From NCBI RefSeq assembly GCF_004210375.1, contig NC_134831.1, positions 44,922,035 to 44,986,034 of the forward strand: 64,000 nucleotides of DNA, written 5' to 3'. A program made the position numbers and the translations under genes. The notes below the pieces were generated by a model, which did no database searches, was not told the origin of the DNA, and was given only the letters and a program-made list of their open reading frames with translations. Source of the DNA: Tachypleus tridentatus. Its lineage: Eukaryota; Arthropoda; Merostomata; Xiphosura; Limulidae. The stretch's first letter is position 1. Each line of letters starts with the position of its first letter. Shown one piece after another: positions 3,695-54,190 of the stretch.

Positions 3695-4296
3695 TCAGTA
3701 GTGAATTGCACGGCCGTCATTGTGAATAACTTCAAACATTCGCTTTGGTATAGTCGATATAAGCGTTTGCTAAAGGCTGTCTGGAATGTTATTTCAAGTG
3801 GTGAAGAAGGCTTCACGAAGATCATCCACTGTTTGGAATTGACGTTCATGTCTATAGACTTCCCTTGCCATCCACCCCCAAACATTTTCAATGGGGTTCA
3901 GTTCGGGGGAACACGCTGGATGATCCAAAAGAATCACGTTTTTCGCCATGAAAAAGTCCTTTGTCCTTTTGGCGTTGTGGATTGCAGCGTTGTCCTGCTA
4001 AAATATCCAGTCACTTCCATACAAGCGAGGGCCTTCAGTCAATAAGGATGCTCTCTCTAACATGCCAATGTAGCCAGCTGCTGTTTGACGTCCCTGTATA
4101 ACCTGAAGCTCCATTATTCCATGGAAGGAGAAAGCACCCAGATCATGATGGAACCTCTTCCACTGTGCCGTGTAGAAAATGTCTCCGGTGGGGTATCCTT
4201 ATCGTGCCAGTATCGTTGGAAGCCATCTGAACAATCCAGGTTAAATTTTTTCTCATTATGGATGTAAAGTATAACAGTAGAAGTATTTACTGACAT
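3695..4296 (-). pseudogene. Tc1-like DD34E transposase, broken and 5' truncated
   Basis: Minus-strand remnant of the catalytic half of a Tc1/mariner transposase, which cuts and pastes its element into TA sites. Visible in order: DEKK-like and GFQRYWHDKDTP region, GSIMIW, then QDNAAIHNAK with a catalytic Asp, and CSPELNPIENVWGWM with the catalytic Glu. There are 34 residues between the Asp of QDNA and the Glu of PIEN, the Tc1 DD34E spacing. The natural stop (TGA) lies at 3695-3697. Breaks: a one-base frameshift in the IWGAFS motif near 4137 and an in-frame TAG just before QDNA. The N-terminal DNA-binding half is absent; a 47-bp minisatellite begins at the truncation edge. Confidence 0.85.
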
Positions 4297-5095
4297 AAAA
4301 CTACATGATTGTAAAGTATAGCAGTAGAAGCATTTACTGACATAAAACTATATGGATATAAAGTATAGCAGTAGAAGTATTTACTGACATAAAACTACAT
4401 GATTGTAAAGTATAGCAGTAGAAGTATTTACTGGTATAAAACTATATGAATGTAAAGTATAGCAGTAGGAGTATTTAGTAACATAAAACTACATGAATGT
4501 ATAAAACTATATGAATGTAAAGTATAGCAGTAGGAGTATTTACTAACCTAAAACTACATGAATGTAAAGAATAGAAGTAGAAGTATTTACTGACATAAAA
4601 CTATATGGATATAAAGTATAGCAGTAGAAGTATTTACTGATGTAAAACTATATGGATGTAAAGTATAGCAGTAGAAGTATTTACTGACATAAAACTACAT
4701 GATTGTAAAGTATAGCAGTAGAAGTATTTACTGACATAAAACTATATGGATATAAAGTATAGCAGTAGAAGTATTTACTTGTATAAAACTATATCGATGT
4801 AAAGTATAGCAGTAGGAGTATTTAGTAACATAAAACTACATGAATGTAAAGTATAGCAGCAGGAGTATTTACTCTCATAAAACTACATGATTGTAAAGTA
4901 TAGCAGTAGAAGTATTTACTGGTATAAAACTATATGGATGTAAGGTATAGCAGTAGGAGTATTTACTATCATAAAACTATATCGATGTAAAGTATAGCAG
5001 TAGGAGTATTTAGTAACATAAAACTACATGAATGTAAAGTATAGCTGTAAAAGTATTTACTAATATAAAACTATATGGATGAAACAATATGGTAA
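4250..5095. repeat. 47-bp minisatellite, about 18 copies
   Basis: Direct tandem units of 47 bp containing GTAAAGTATAGCAGTAGAAG and ATTTACTGACATAAAACTA. The first two unit starts lie at 4264 and 4311. Variants alternate between ACATGATT, ATATGGAT and ATATCGAT ends, indicating higher-order or patchy homogenisation; one shortened unit occurs near 4490-4515. Units decay toward 5095. Confidence 0.9.
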
Positions 5096-9589: not shown

Positions 9590-11575
9590 TTTCAACCCAG
9601 TACGGGTCTGTGTATCTAATGATCGATTTCTGCCTACAGAGTACAGATCTGTATATGTCATAGTTAATTTCTGTCTGCACACTGTCAATCTGTGTATGTC
9701 ATAGTTAATTTCTGTCTACACACTGTCAATCTGTGTACGTCATAGTTAATTTCTGTCTACACACTGTCAATCTGTGTATGTCATAGTTAATTTCTGTCTA
9801 CACACTGTCAATCTGTGTATGTCATAGTTAATTTCTGTCTACACACTGTCAATCTGTGTATGTCATAGTTAATTTCTGTCTACACACTGTCAATCTGTGT
9901 ATGTCATAGTTAATTTCTGTCTACACACTGTCAATCTGTGTATGTCATAGTTAATTTCTGTCTACACACTGTCAATCTGTGTATGTCATAGTTAATTTCT
10001 GTCTACACACTGTCAATCTGTGTATGTCATAGTTAATTTCTGTCTACTCACTGTCAATCTGTGTATGTCATAGTTAATTTCTGTCTACACACTGTCAATC
10101 TGTGTATGTCATAGTTAATTTCTGTCTACACACTGTCAATCTGTATACGTCATAGTTAATTTCTGTCTACACACTGTCAATCTGTGTATGTCATAGTTAA
10201 TTTCTGTCTACACACTGTCAATCTGTGTATGTCATAGTTAATTTCTGTCTACACACTGTCAATCTGTGTATGTCATAGTTAATTTCTGTCTACACACTGT
10301 CAATCTGTGTATGTCATAGTTAATTTCTGTCTACACACTGTCAATCTGTGTATGTCATAGTTAATTTCTGTCTACACACTGTCAATCTGTGTATGTCATA
10401 GTTAATTTCTGTCTACACACTGTCAATCTGTGTATGTCACAGTTAATTTCTGTCTACACACTGTCAATCTGTATATGTCATAGTTAATTTCTGTCTACAC
10501 ACTGTCAATTTGTGTATGTCATAGTTAATTTCTGTCTACACACTGTCAATCTGTGTATGTCATAGTTAATTTCTGTCTACACACTGTCAATCTGTGTATG
10601 GCTCAGCGGTATGTCTGCGGACTTACAACGCAAAAAACCGGGTTTCAATACCTGTGGTGGGCAAAGCACAGATAGCCCACTGTGTATCTTTGTGCGAATT
10701 CAAAACAACAACAATATAGTTAACTTCTGTCTACACATTACGGATCTGCGTATGTCATAATTAATTTCTGTCTACATAGTACCAATCTGTGTATGCCATA
10801 GTTAATTTCTGTTTACATAATACCAATCTGTGTATGTGATCGGTAATTTCTGTCTACATAATACCAATCTGTGTATGTCATAGTTAATTTCTGTTTACAC
10901 GGTACCAATCTGTTTATGTCACAGTTAATGTTTGATAAAAGTTTATATTTGCTTGATTGAGTAATGAAAAAAACTCTGTTATAAACGCACGACACGATTT
11001 TGTCATCCTCTTGATTTTTGTCTACCCAGTATGAATCTGTGTACTTCATGACTGATTTCTCCCTATATTGTACGGATCTGTGTACTTCATGACTGATTTC
11101 TCCCTATATTGTACGGATCTGTGTATTTCATGACTGATTTCTCCCTATGTTGTACGGATCTGTGCATTTCATGACTGATTTCTCCCTATATTGTACGGAT
11201 CTGTGTATTTCATGACTGATTTCTCCCTATATTGTACGGATCTGTGTATTTCATGACTGATTTCTCTCTACTCGGTACAGTTGTCTGTATCTCATGATTG
11301 ATTTCTGCCTTCACAATACAGATCTATGTATTTCACGATTATTTTTTGCCTACACAGTAAAGATCAGTGTATCTCATGATCGATTACTGTATACACAATA
11401 CGCATTTATGTTTCTCATGATTTATTTCTTCCTACACAGTAAGGATCTATCTACTTCACAATTGATTTCTGCTTACACAATACACATCTGTGTATTTTAC
11501 GATTGATTTCTGTTTACACGTTCGGATATCTGTATCTACAAATCGATATCTGCTTATACAGTCAGTCAGAGTTAA
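9590..11575. repeat. 41-bp satellite array with homogenised core
   Basis: Tandem 41-bp units built on TAGTTAATTTCTGTCTACAC and ACTGTCAATCTGTGTATGTC. From about 9660 to 10600 some 23 units are nearly identical. On both sides, units diverge (for example CATGACTGATTTCTCCCTA at 11.04-11.27 kb, still with a 41-bp period). A SINE-B copy splits the array at 10598-10712. Confidence 0.95.
10598..10712 (+). mobile_element. SINE-B copy inside the 41-bp satellite
   Basis: GGCTCAGCGGTATGTCTGCG through GGGTTTCAATACC to a CAACAACAAT tail. The head lacks its first few bases at the join with the satellite unit. It marks the boundary between the homogenised core and the diverged right flank. Confidence 0.8.
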
Positions 11576-46455: not shown

Positions 46456-46479
46456 TAAAATACTTTTTTATGTTTTCAG

Positions 46480-46562
46480 TGATGTCGAGAAAACCCACTT
46501 GTAGAGAAATATATATGTAAAAACGGCTCGTTTGGGTTGAGAAAATTTTTTTATGTAGAGGA
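46480..46562 (-). mobile_element. Penelope-like element 3'-end fragment
   Basis: CAGTGATGTCGAGAAAACCC, then ACGGCTCGTTTGGGTTGAGA match the left terminus of the PLE dimer at 53047-53130. Only the extreme 3' end is present; a SINE-B scrap (about 46562-46600, ACCGCTTAGCCACTGGGGG) follows. Confidence 0.75.
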
Positions 46563-47703
46563 GGTCACAGACATACCGCTTAGCCACTGGGGGGCAGTAG
46601 TGAAGCAGTTGTTGATATTACCTACATGCCACACGCGTAATGCTCTAGCCCTAATACTGTAACAAAAGTAAAGGTAACAAGCCTTAATGACAACTGAACA
46701 ATAGCGAAAAAATTCATCAAAAAGATGTGAATAAAGATGAGCGAAAGAAATTAAATTAAATCGCTACGTGATAAATACGAACAAAATGACAGTACAATAT
46801 CATAAAGCTCAACGAACAAAATCGAAAAGACAACAGATTGAAGTGAACGAAAGCAGGACAACAATAAAGGTGGGCAAAATAAAAGAAAATCGTTAGACGC
46901 TTGAAAATATACATACATATATATATATACCCGTAGAAACAAGCACTCTATACGATAAATATAGTGATTGGAGTATTAGTGTTATATATTCATCTTGTAA
47001 TAGATTAGATAAAGAATGTAGTATTTAGTATTTATAAGTAATTTCTTATGGTAAATATTAAAATTATGACCACATTCAAGTTTTCGAAAGTTAAAAAATT
47101 AATTTTTTATGATCAGAAAGGTTCATAAAATTATTTTTACAATATTGTTTTAGATTCAGTTAAACTACTGTAAGTCTTATAATACTTAGAATAGTTAAAA
47201 TTAAATAAACAATTACCAGCTTAATAGTTGTCCGAATCGTGGATGAATGAACTTTGACGTAAATATGTTCTTTAAATTTCTTGGGTTAACACTGTCTACT
47301 TAAATATAAGATTTAAAAGTGCGGCGAAATCGTACTAAGACAAACGATAGCTTAAAAGATGATTACAGATTGTTAATTTAGTTATAATTTAAAGTTATTT
47401 ATCTATTACATCATTAAACGTATTCCTCTTTCAAGCCTGGTAAGAAAAAATCACTGACGTAACGAAGTACGTTGTTCTTCCGGTTTTTGACTAACATTAT
47501 GTAAGCCTAAATATGAGACTTGAAAACAACTGAATTGAACGAGGTGTGGTGTTTTATGACGTGAGGAAAATCAGTGTTCGGAATTCTTATCAAATAACAT
47601 ACTTTATTGTAAGACTATCTTCAGCATTGTAGATTTACTACATAGGTCATTACGAATCACACTGTATTCGAGCTTACATTATGCAATTTTGATCATTATT
47701 TAG

Positions 47704-49149: not shown

Positions 49150-49375
49150 AGATTGTGCCGTTATTTTATAGCCTGTAAGCTATCTTACAAGCACGAGGTG
49201 TTAACTGCGCGATTACTTTCCTTCGACAATATTAAATAAACTGTAAGTACTTTTGCAACCGTCAGCCACACTCTCTCTCTTTTTAACCTGAAGATAACTA
49301 AGAAGGTCGAAACGTTGTTCTGTATTTTATTTTAATTAAAGTTTTAATTCTCATACCAGCTGCCTTTATAATAAA
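49150..49375 (+). mobile_element. Penelope-like element 3'-end fragment
   Basis: Carries the hammerhead-like block and the downstream TTAATTCTCATACCAGCTGC that matches the reverse of 495-520. The coding part is missing. Confidence 0.6.
49287..49320 (+). ncRNA. Hammerhead-ribozyme-like hairpin (PLE)
   Basis: CTGAAGA (49288-49294), then a hairpin with weakened stem (AACT-AAGAAG-GTC), then GAAAC. Core boxes intact. Confidence 0.4.
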
Positions 49376-51052: not shown

Positions 51053-53033
51053 CCTAAACTTAACGCCGAGTCGCCGAGGGACTTTACCGATTCTACAGGT
51101 GCTCTTTTATATGTATTTGCGTTTTGTTTTCTAGTGTGAAAGCTTTTCAATGTATGTTTTACTACTTCTTGAATTTATTTCATTTTAGACTTTCCGAAAC
51201 TTTATTTTTCAGATTCTCAAGATTTGAGGAAACTGTACAAAGGAACAAAAAGTTGAACCTCATTCCAGAGTTCTAATTGGATGATATGATATAAAACCTC
51301 TACAATACAAGTCGTCCTATTGGAAAATAAACAACACAAAATTGAAGATACGTAAATTAATGTTTTTATCTAATGGATTTAGTGAAACAAAGTAGCTTCC
51401 TGTTTTAAAGAAGCTTAGTCAGAAATATTACCTAAATTCAGCTAATTTTAATGTTTCAGCTGCCACATCGTTAGAAGCTGTACGTAGTCTTGAAGTTTTT
51501 ACGTAGCATGTTTCGTTGGCATGACTAACTAAAAGTACCAATTATAAGCCTTACTTCACTGCTCTGTATTATATAATAGCGATACATACAGAAAGTATAA
51601 ACATTTGAAAAATGTTTTAAAGCACACTAGGATCCAGCTATCAACATATCGTGTTCGTGAACTTTATATGTTTACTATATTTTGTTTATTACTTCATTTC
51701 TTGTGTTTGGTTTTAATTTTGGTGTAGGGACTTTTGAAGATGTCTAGGTTTTAAAATGGATAAGTTATTGCAGTTATTAAATGTATCAGTTGTTTCTGTG
51801 TGAAATTTATATATCTTTGTATCATTCTTATAACGTAATGTTTTAACGTTAGTTGTACTTTACTTTAATCATGGTAGTTTTAATACTATAGTGTGTGTGT
51901 ACAGCTTACTGCCTAGACACTCGTCTTTCTAATAACTTGCACAGACGTTGCTAGAAGTCAGATATGTATAGACTGTGTAGAGTGTGATATGTAATCAATG
52001 TTTACGGAATAAAACAAAACTGTAAATAACTTCCATATATCTTGTTTAAAGTCATATTGAATTATCTTCTACGAATCTATTTTATTATAGCTGTATGTAA
52101 TTTTTTTTATTGACCATCTTGTTTCTTACTTTTTACATTTATTTATTTATTTTTCTGGGGAAAGCTACAAAATAAACTATCTACGTATTAAAATAATGTT
52201 TTGGCTTTTTTTCTTTTTTCTTGAAATATATAAATAACGCACAGTAAAAGAATACTCTTCCATTCGCTGCTAAAAGCTTTGCCAAACCGACCCCGATTAT
52301 GGTATGGCTAAAATAAAGAAATTCTAAAGTGAATTTTTAAATATACTTTTGAGAAAACCATCTTTATTCTAAATATGTTAAAAACTGAAAAAATATACAC
52401 GTTATAAGATAAAAAATTTACAAACATATCTTGTAGGCAAGCAAAAACGAAAAATAATCTTACTTCAAATGGACGTACTGTGTAACCAAAATTACGAAAA
52501 CATCTTTAAATTTCATGATATTTATACAGAGAGAAAATGTTTATTGTTTAAATACTTCGCTGTTTTCTTATCGTATGATTTTAACTTACAAGAAAAGGAG
52601 CCGAAAGAAATATTGCGCTGGAAAATAGTTATTGAGGCTTATTGAATTTAGCGCCATCTAGTGAATAGTACCACAAACGCAAATCTATAAAGAAATTCAC
52701 TCTTTCGATATTTGAGATTCAGACAATTTGGAATATAACAATGATTATTTCTTTACTGCAGAATAACATTTTAAATAAGTAGTATCGAAACATGGCTTTT
52801 ACTGGGGTTCTACGTGAGTTTCTTTATATATTTATTGATGAAATTTGTAAACGTAGAACTAAAAACCTGTAATTCTTTAAAAAACAACTTTTTTTTTTCA
52901 AAAAACGAGAGCACTTTTAATACATAAAAATAATATAGTTTATATTAGCAAACTTTATGAAAAGCTTGGTCTGTACATTGAATCATTTTAATGTAATAAG
53001 TTGTGTGTGACTAAGAAACACAATTCAAAGAAT
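51053..53033. other. Repeat-poor stretch; possible terminal exon and 3' UTR
   Basis: Nearly 2 kb free of SINEs, unusual here. Two strong acceptor-like sites (TTTTGTTTTCTAG ending near 51135, TTTATTTTTCAG ending near 51213) and an AATAAA at 52008-52013 would fit a last exon with a long 3' UTR, possibly of a short CLIP isoform. No conserved protein sequence supports it. Confidence 0.2.
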
Positions 53034-53133
53034 TTTCTCGTACAATCAGTGATGTCAAGAAAACCCACTTGTAGAAAAATACATATGCAAAAACAGCTCG
53101 TTTGGGTTGAGAAAATATTTTACATAGAAGAGC

Positions 53134-53168
53134 GAACAACGTTTCGACCTCCTTCGGTCATCGTCAGG
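53134..53168 (-). ncRNA. Hammerhead-ribozyme-like hairpin, left arm
   Basis: Exact mirror of 54089-54123: CTGACGA, TGACC stem, GAAGGA loop, GGTC, GAAAC. Confidence 0.45.
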
Positions 53169-53296
53169 TTCACAAAGAAAGAGGTAACTGACCGGAAGCT
53201 GACCACATGTTTGAAAGGGGTTGTGTAACTGAGTGTCGGAATGTAGAGGGCGATGTTAGATGTTTGAATATATAGTTTATTTATTTTATTATATTA

Positions 53297-53715
53297 ATAT
53301 AGGTATAAAGGCGTTCCTTTATATTGGTTTATTTTGGGTTTAAGTTGTTGTATAAGTAAGGCTTCTTTAATTTTGCGTTTGTTTATGTTTGTTTCTTTAT
53401 TTAGTATTTGAGTGTTTTCTATGGTTATGTTGTGTTTATTTGACTTGCAGTGTTCGAAAACGTGTGAAGGTGACTTTTTTTATGTTCTTTGAATCTGGTT
53501 TCCATTTTTCTACTTGTTTCTCCAATATAGAAGTCGTGGCAGTTATCACATTGTATTTTATAAATAATGTTGGTGTGGTGTTTGTCAGTGTAGTTTTTAC
53601 ATAGTATAGACCTCAGTTTTGTGCCTGGTTTTTGAATAAATTTGGTATTAACTGGAATGTCATATTTTGTTACTAGTTTTTGCCAAATGTTGGTTATTTT
53701 TCTGCTGATGTCAGG
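53297..53715 (-). pseudogene. PLE GIY-YIG endonuclease, minus copy
   Basis: C-terminal part of a Penelope-like polyprotein. Upstream region KLVTKYDIPVNTKFIQKPGT and KLRSILCKNYTDKHH leads to IIYKIQCDNCHDFYIGETSR, the IYK...YIG signature with the Cys-x2-Cys-His knuckle typical of PLE nucleases, then METRFKEHKK with the expected Arg and His. A homopolymer-A indel after KEHK shifts the frame, and the rest (to the stop near 53297) must be read in another frame. It would nick target DNA to prime reverse transcription; here it is dead. Confidence 0.85.
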
Positions 53716-53962
53716 AACTGCCACGACTTCTATATTGGAGAAACAAGAAGAAAAATGGAAACCAGATTCAAAGAACATAAAGTCACCTTCACACGTTTTC
53801 GAACACTGCAAGTCAAGTAAACACAACATAACCATAGAAAACACTCAAATACTAAATAAAGAAACAAACATAAACAAACGCAAAATTAAAGAAGCCTTAC
53901 TTATACAACAACTTAAACCCAAAAGAAACCAATATAAAGGAACGCCTTTATACCCATATTAA
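53715..53962 (+). pseudogene. PLE GIY-YIG endonuclease C-terminus, plus copy
   Basis: Starts within the knuckle at NCHDFYIGETRRK and, after a one-base shift in KEHK, continues SHVFEHCKSSKHNITIENTQ, then NKRKIKEALLIQQLKP and NQYKGTPLYPY with a natural TAA at 53960-53962. The EHC...HNI...IKEALLI order is the conserved PLE C-terminus. The shift differs from that of the minus copy, so the two copies decayed independently or came from different templates. Confidence 0.85.
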
Positions 53963-54088
53963 TATAATAAAATAAATAAAACTATATATTCAAACATCTA
54001 ACATCGCCCTCTACATTCCGACACTCAGTTACACAACCCCTTTCAAACATGTGGTCAGCTTCCGGTCAGTTACCTCTTTCTTTGTGAA

Positions 54089-54123
54089 CCTGACGATGAC
54101 CGAAGGAGGTCGAAACGTTGTTC
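54089..54123 (+). ncRNA. Hammerhead-ribozyme-like hairpin, right arm
   Basis: CTGACGA (54090-54096), T, stem GACC/GGTC with GAAGGA loop, GAAA (54112-54115), then CGTTGTTC. It lies about 127 bases after the PLE stop codon, in the 3' UTR. One extra T between core and stem II departs from the standard hammerhead. Confidence 0.45.
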
Positions 54124-54190
54124 GCACTTCTATGTAAAATATTTTCTCAACCCAAACGAGCCGTTTTTGCATATGTATTTCTCGTACAAT

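Follow-up and report, generated by a model that had tools for sequence, protein, structure and literature searches.

Inverted pseudo-LTRs (pLTRs) of Penelope-like elements (PLEs) have been described within one target-site duplication (TSD), with a 31-bp tail that is optional on one of them, and the head-to-head order is given there as the most frequently observed inverted arrangement, for which self-priming was suggested (PMC3846280). Inverted pLTRs and short 3′ extensions are also listed among the peculiarities of PLEs (PMC8969392). A purified PLE is reported to cut and extend both target strands, and two adjacent internal start sites on the RNA bound the tail (PMC11167929). The locus described here, at positions 53034-54190 of the window (a stretch of 64,000 nucleotides, C7:44922035-44986034, of a 2.17-Gb genome), is an ordinary PLE insertion of this known layout. 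The initial annotation had taken it for a clear structural record of how PLE termini join; the layout is usual for PLEs as described in PMC3846280, and not exceptional. What it adds, and what makes it worth following, is the recurrence of one tail, one duplication, and one haplotype.

Anatomy of the insertion and its element family

The locus consists of two 5′-truncated 3′ parts of a GIY-YIG PLE placed head to head, with their sense 3′ ends facing outward and their truncated ends meeting at 53716/53717, where about 2 nt (AA) are common to both arms. The left arm lies on the minus strand (674 nt including an overlap into the flanking 13-mer, limits 53044/53047-53717), and the right arm, a plus-strand copy of the same 3′ part, is shorter at its 5′ end (462 nt, 53716-54177). 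Inverted stretches of 214, 202, and 66 nt are 97 to 99% complementary, and the arm-to-arm alignment proposed in the initial annotation gave 97.3% identity over 478 columns, which bears out its description of two outward-facing, 5′-truncated copies. The single 13-mer that it placed around the whole unit, TTTCTCGTACAAT, is indeed identical at 53034-53046 and 54178-54190. Within the locus it occurs only at these two outer edges, and a second duplication at one arm, named beforehand as a sign of separate insertions, is absent. Up to 3 nt at either end of the 13-mer (the last 3 nt of the left copy, the first 3 nt of the right copy) also match the element's own continuation, which puts the duplication proper at 7 to 13 nt as judged from these matches.

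Read in the sense direction, each arm contains the end of the GIY-YIG coding region, then noncoding DNA that includes a hammerhead-like core, and the terminal sequence GCATATGTA. In the left arm, GCATATGTA is followed by a 33-nt tail that ends in CACTG (53047-53079, minus strand); the right arm has no tail. The earlier statement that the right arm lacks 34 terminal bases thus holds for the unequal ends, but not for a loss or damage: the difference corresponds to a discrete tail of 33 nt on the left arm, lying between two adjacent reverse transcription (RT) starts of the kind described in PMC11167929. In the same way, the coding frame is shifted in both arms, but not at different sites as had been claimed; the shift falls on one A-run at the same place, with 7 A in the left arm and 3 A in the right, and the length of this run varies in other copies of the family too.

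By its predicted domains the element is a canonical GIY-YIG PLE, the RT domain being seen in a related copy only (L111; RVT_1, E 4e-12) and absent from the truncated arms of the window in the Pfam search. The endonuclease fragment of the left arm (53455-53568, minus strand), whose frame is broken at the A-run, matched PF01541 with an E value of 6.8e-4, its 20.3 bits falling short of the Pfam threshold of 22.6. Its counterpart in the right arm (53716-53781, plus strand) was recognized by its match to the left arm, and its 34 residues alone gave no Pfam GIY-YIG match. Other properties of PLEs were also found, namely a target duplication with 5′ truncation and a tail within the expected 30 to 40 bp (33 nt), with the 3′ ends of the family falling into two classes. 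Tandem units (pLTRs) were observed in other copies, the window arms being too short to display them: head-to-tail units on one strand have a spacing of about 2.84 kb at C4:49.20 Mb (G000:C4:49199865-49208909), and multiples of it occur at C3:56.31 Mb (C3:56310068-56330469). The pLTR, tail included, runs straight into the unit in L110 and L111, so that the tail lies inside the transcribed unit and both 3′ ends of the insertion are internal unit positions. The 3′ ends of Anolis Poseidon are likewise reported to be internal RT starts (PMC11167929).

The predicted hammerhead-like core of the pLTR (CTGANGA...GAAAC) lies at 53132-53167 on the minus strand of the left arm and at 54090-54125 on the plus strand of the right arm, both exact matches to a pattern derived from the window. 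This pattern had 12,720 matches in the genome at no more than 2 mismatches, and its reversed control had 0. Pairs 1 to 6 of stem I were kept in 79 to 82 of 83 cores and pair 7 in 2 of 83, the fold of the core had a z score of -2.4, and a search of the window locus with Rfam at E values up to 1 gave no hammerhead match, which, together with the subthreshold and missing GIY-YIG matches, tells against an unqualified family label. Minimal PLE hammerheads without helix III have been described (PMC6155905). The same Rfam search matched MIR2646 and MIR8007 at 53452-53804 below their gathering scores, which we took as an effect of the palindrome; such low-E, subthreshold miRNA matches are a possible trap for automatic annotation.

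On its left side, the insertion lies within an old repeat of about 70% identity; this dispersed repeat (52623-53043, 67 to 77% identity at the places scored) extends up to the PLE insertion point, where the query ended. The right flank is nearly unique, and a right-flank query does not recover the repeat. The joined flanks found no empty site at up to 3 mismatches in the one genome assembly, a search for which one repeat flank and one unique flank give no paralogous test. Elsewhere in the window there is a very short second tailed PLE 3′ end (46476-46563, minus strand), 95% identical to reference positions 1921-2007 and with no inverted partner seen nearby, and older PLE 3′-end remnants with 71 to 83% identity to the reference lie at 526-580, 731-851, and 49271-49320. 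The window also carries 41-bp units in a minisatellite at 9647-10600 (23 copies, 98% matches) and in additional arrays within 10716-11537, as well as a 47-bp tandem array at 4257-5081 (17 copies, 80% matches).

Recurrence of the one-tail pattern

We scanned 84 sequences, which are samples of the family and not a census, against one real copy, L013, as the reference. An end at reference positions 1963-1986 was scored as tail-less and one at 1999-2022 as tailed, and two arms were called a pair when the inner gap was no more than 60 nt, with the limit raised to 1000 nt where the reference itself came to an end. Before the scan, L001 and L009 (same place as L039) were dropped, L016, L017, L026, L033, L060, and L091-L095 were replaced by five joined stretches, and the end pieces L069-L074 and L077-L084 were replaced by the whole pairs L085-L090, with L071/L072 omitted as a duplicate of L069/L070; L106-L114 lay outside the scanned set. 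The scan gave 54 head-to-head junctions, or 52 after removal of L005 and L044, the duplicates of L004 and L041. The insertions at L069/L070 and L071/L072 (C1, 0.61 and 1.38 Mb), L041/L044, and L004/L005 each appear twice together with their flanks or target duplication, as segmental or assembly duplications.

The search for other outward-facing pairs within one target duplication, which the initial annotation had suggested, was productive. One tailed and one tail-less arm were found in 41 of the 52 distinct junctions, and 39 of these 41 had a target match of at least 8 nt, with a mode of 13 nt (15 of 41). The other 11 junctions comprised five with an internal and a tailed end, two with a tail-less and an odd end, two with a tailed and an odd end, one with two odd ends, and one that is apparently two-tailed; a match of at least 8 nt was present in only one of them (Fisher p 4e-8), L048, in which one end is tailed, the other is shorter, and 12 nt match at the target. 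When the left flank was compared with the right flank of another locus, at least 8 nt matched in 48 of 2450 comparisons (2%), versus 42 of 50 for the true flanks, with two duplicated loci still included.

Because the sample collected by the tail pattern is blind to tail-less pairs, and one further query contained the tail, pairs from tail-free queries were counted apart: all 22 with a target match of at least 8 nt were one-tailed (2e-7 if the ends were independent at one half). Among the 69 one-mismatch hammerhead matches listed on C1, nine pairs (8 distinct loci) had their two members within 6 kb of each other, and all nine faced outward as judged by eye. Eight of the nine were one-tailed with matching flanks, two of these eight being one duplicated locus; the flank match of L083/L084 is short, and the ninth pair is L076, which joins two subfamilies. 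Among the odd junctions checked by hand, L099 and L045 continue into the next unit of the element itself, so their ends are not true ends, and L012 has no target match. L062 reads as one-tailed with a matching duplication and is not counted in the 52, since its inner gap exceeds what the pair filter allows. Single-armed copies were tail-ended in 15 cases and tail-less in 9, with a flank match of at least 8 nt in 6 of 15 and 0 of 9, respectively; five of these six belong to the sample that was selected by the tail, and L086 and L089, although listed as single, are parts of pairs.

Template haplotype, joining, and origin of the arms

Partner arms carry the same haplotype. At sites that are polymorphic in the family (common SNPs), they agreed in 456 of 475 comparisons, versus 60% for mismatched arms, and 0 of 2000 permutations reached the observed value. 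To allow for possible differences between subfamilies in their period of activity, we chose the nearest copies as a control. In the same 27 pairs, partners were discordant at 11 of 391 polymorphic and 258 of 11716 other sites (ratio 1.3), compared with 81 of 1129 and 539 of 33532 for the three nearest nonpartners (ratio 4.5; nominal p 7e-4) and 35 of 389 and 193 of 11714 for the single nearest nonpartner (ratio 5.5; nominal p 2e-4); the p values are nominal because the SNP sites are linked. Unequal sets (41 pairs for partners, fewer for the nearest copies) had the same outcome, with 13 of 422 versus 82 of 1129 and, for the remaining copies, 6475 of 17667. In the window, each arm ranks first of 64 as the match to the other, and the two have 3 rare alleles in common against a control mean of 0.03; among the other copies, rare alleles that they share occur in 1 of 66 and 1 of 75. 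Of 25 pairs, only 8 had the partner as the best match, and several pairs (e.g., L010 and X026) have no rare alleles in common; we read the pairs without a best-matching partner as old arms that have drifted or as near-identical young copies. The template for both arms was probably either a single RNA or sister RNAs from the same locus, two sources that are equally compatible with the haplotype data.

At the inner junctions, the BLAST hits of the two arms overlapped by at least 3 nt in 18 of 37 pairs, more often than in 480 simulated joints (23%, p 7e-4), and microhomology therefore seems to help in joining the arms. The arms differ in 5′ extent by 14 to 1821 nt. The tailed arm extended further toward the 5′ end in 23 of 41 pairs and the tail-less arm in 18 of 41 (p 0.53), so that 5′ extents carry no readable order of synthesis. 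Of 41 pairs, 38 have an A immediately beyond the tailed end, and the two following positions hold a T in 25 and 26 pairs, respectively. An ATT target preference is reported in PMC11167929, and the unit's own continuation is ATTATTG; the A-T-T flank fits both, which makes a cleavage preference and primer annealing inseparable here.

We consider it very likely that the locus arose by one dual-primed retrotransposition of a canonical GIY-YIG PLE into both cut strands, with the arms joined through microhomology. The two target strands would be cut by the endonuclease at positions up to 13 nt apart, presumably leaving 3′ overhangs, and each overhang would prime RT inside the PLE RNA. A start at the downstream site would give the tailed left arm, and a start 33 nt upstream would give the tail-less right arm. 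Both cDNAs would stop short of the 5′ end of the RNA and be joined via a short microhomology, and fill-in would then make the target duplication. The order of events and the source in one RNA or sister RNAs are what we infer; the tail anatomy, the one target duplication, and the recurrence at unrelated sites support a single integration with both nicked strands priming RT, as the initial annotation had proposed.

Among the other explanations, dual priming on two unrelated RNAs from different loci keeps the most weight, although it is improbable: the arms are no closer than random copies in some pairs (L010, L051, and X026), but this origin does not fit the ratio of polymorphic to other discordance, which sets partners apart from their three nearest nonpartners. 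A single cDNA that folds back and is copied into a second arm seems quite unlikely. It would account for the head-to-head layout and for the same haplotype in both arms, and self-priming on an antisense template was proposed for palindromic head-to-head PLE junctions by Arkhipova in 2013 (PMC3846280); a small loop would also account for the 9 of 41 pairs whose arms have 5′ ends less than 80 nt apart. However, in 32 of 41 pairs this distance exceeds 100 nt and reaches up to 1821 nt. A foldback copy should also end at the start of its template, whereas the two arms end at different, defined 3′ positions in 41 of 52 junctions.

Two independent insertions that came to lie head to head by chance are very improbable, in agreement with the earlier judgment of the locus. 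PLEs are very abundant, as the pattern matches indicate, and their targets are AT-rich; 12 of 52 junctions, two of them one-tailed, have no target match of at least 8 nt, and L076 joins two different subfamilies without a target duplication. On the other hand, a second insertion would bring its own duplication to the inner junction, whereas the 13-mer stands at the outer edges only, the haplotype sharing of the arms exceeds that with the nearest other copies, and the nine close pairs among the 69 C1 matches listed all faced outward. We give equally little credence to a later inverted duplication of one copy, which the initial annotation had also argued against, and to the insertion of preformed palindromic DNA, which it had still entertained. 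Either would explain a common source haplotype. Against both stand a right flank of nearly unique sequence that carries the matching 13-mer, arms that terminate at two distinct, defined 3′ positions, and the single occurrence of the window junction among the best 40 of 900 candidates.

Within the preferred dual-primed integration, a narrower version is conceivable, though we hold it only tentatively and think it rather less likely than not to be correct: a coupled RT pair may work on one RNA molecule, with one enzyme per start site and the second copying behind the first. Each event would then leave a single tail and two arms of matching haplotype, and the start sites, instead of being sloppy alternatives, would form a dedicated mechanism for two-strand integration.

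Comparison with known systems

In LINE-1 twin priming, the two target strands prime on the element RNA and the cDNAs join in inverted orientation, and the inverted piece starts inside the RNA, without the 3′ end of the element. Unlike this, both arms of the window end at the element's own 3′ initiation sites, and LINE-1-style twin priming was rejected as a description of the locus since both arms carry 3′ ends.

As described in PMC3846280, the Penelope element Pen2a_Av of Adineta vaga resembles the window locus in having an inverted pLTR beside the main copy, a single TSD around the insert, and a tail on one arm. Its TSD is 9 bp (13 bp in the window), its tail is 31 bp, and its inverted pLTR is 37 bp shorter; direct pLTRs flank the open reading frame of its main copy on either side (PMC3846280), whereas the window arms are both 5′ truncated. 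The literature covered here gave no statement that the arms of two-armed insertions use one start site each or share a haplotype, which is no proof of absence. The recurring one-tail, same-haplotype pattern favors coordinated two-strand priming over the self-priming that was proposed in 2013 (PMC3846280).

Poseidon PAc of Anolis carolinensis, as presented in PMC11167929, is similar to the window element in its GIY-YIG/RT architecture, tail between adjacent starts, and ATT-type target, and its hammerhead motif has a putative counterpart in the hammerhead-like core of the window arms. Both strands are cut and extended by it in an in vitro system that covers the first steps only, and no strand difference in the start site was seen there (PMC11167929), whereas the locus in the window has one arm per site.
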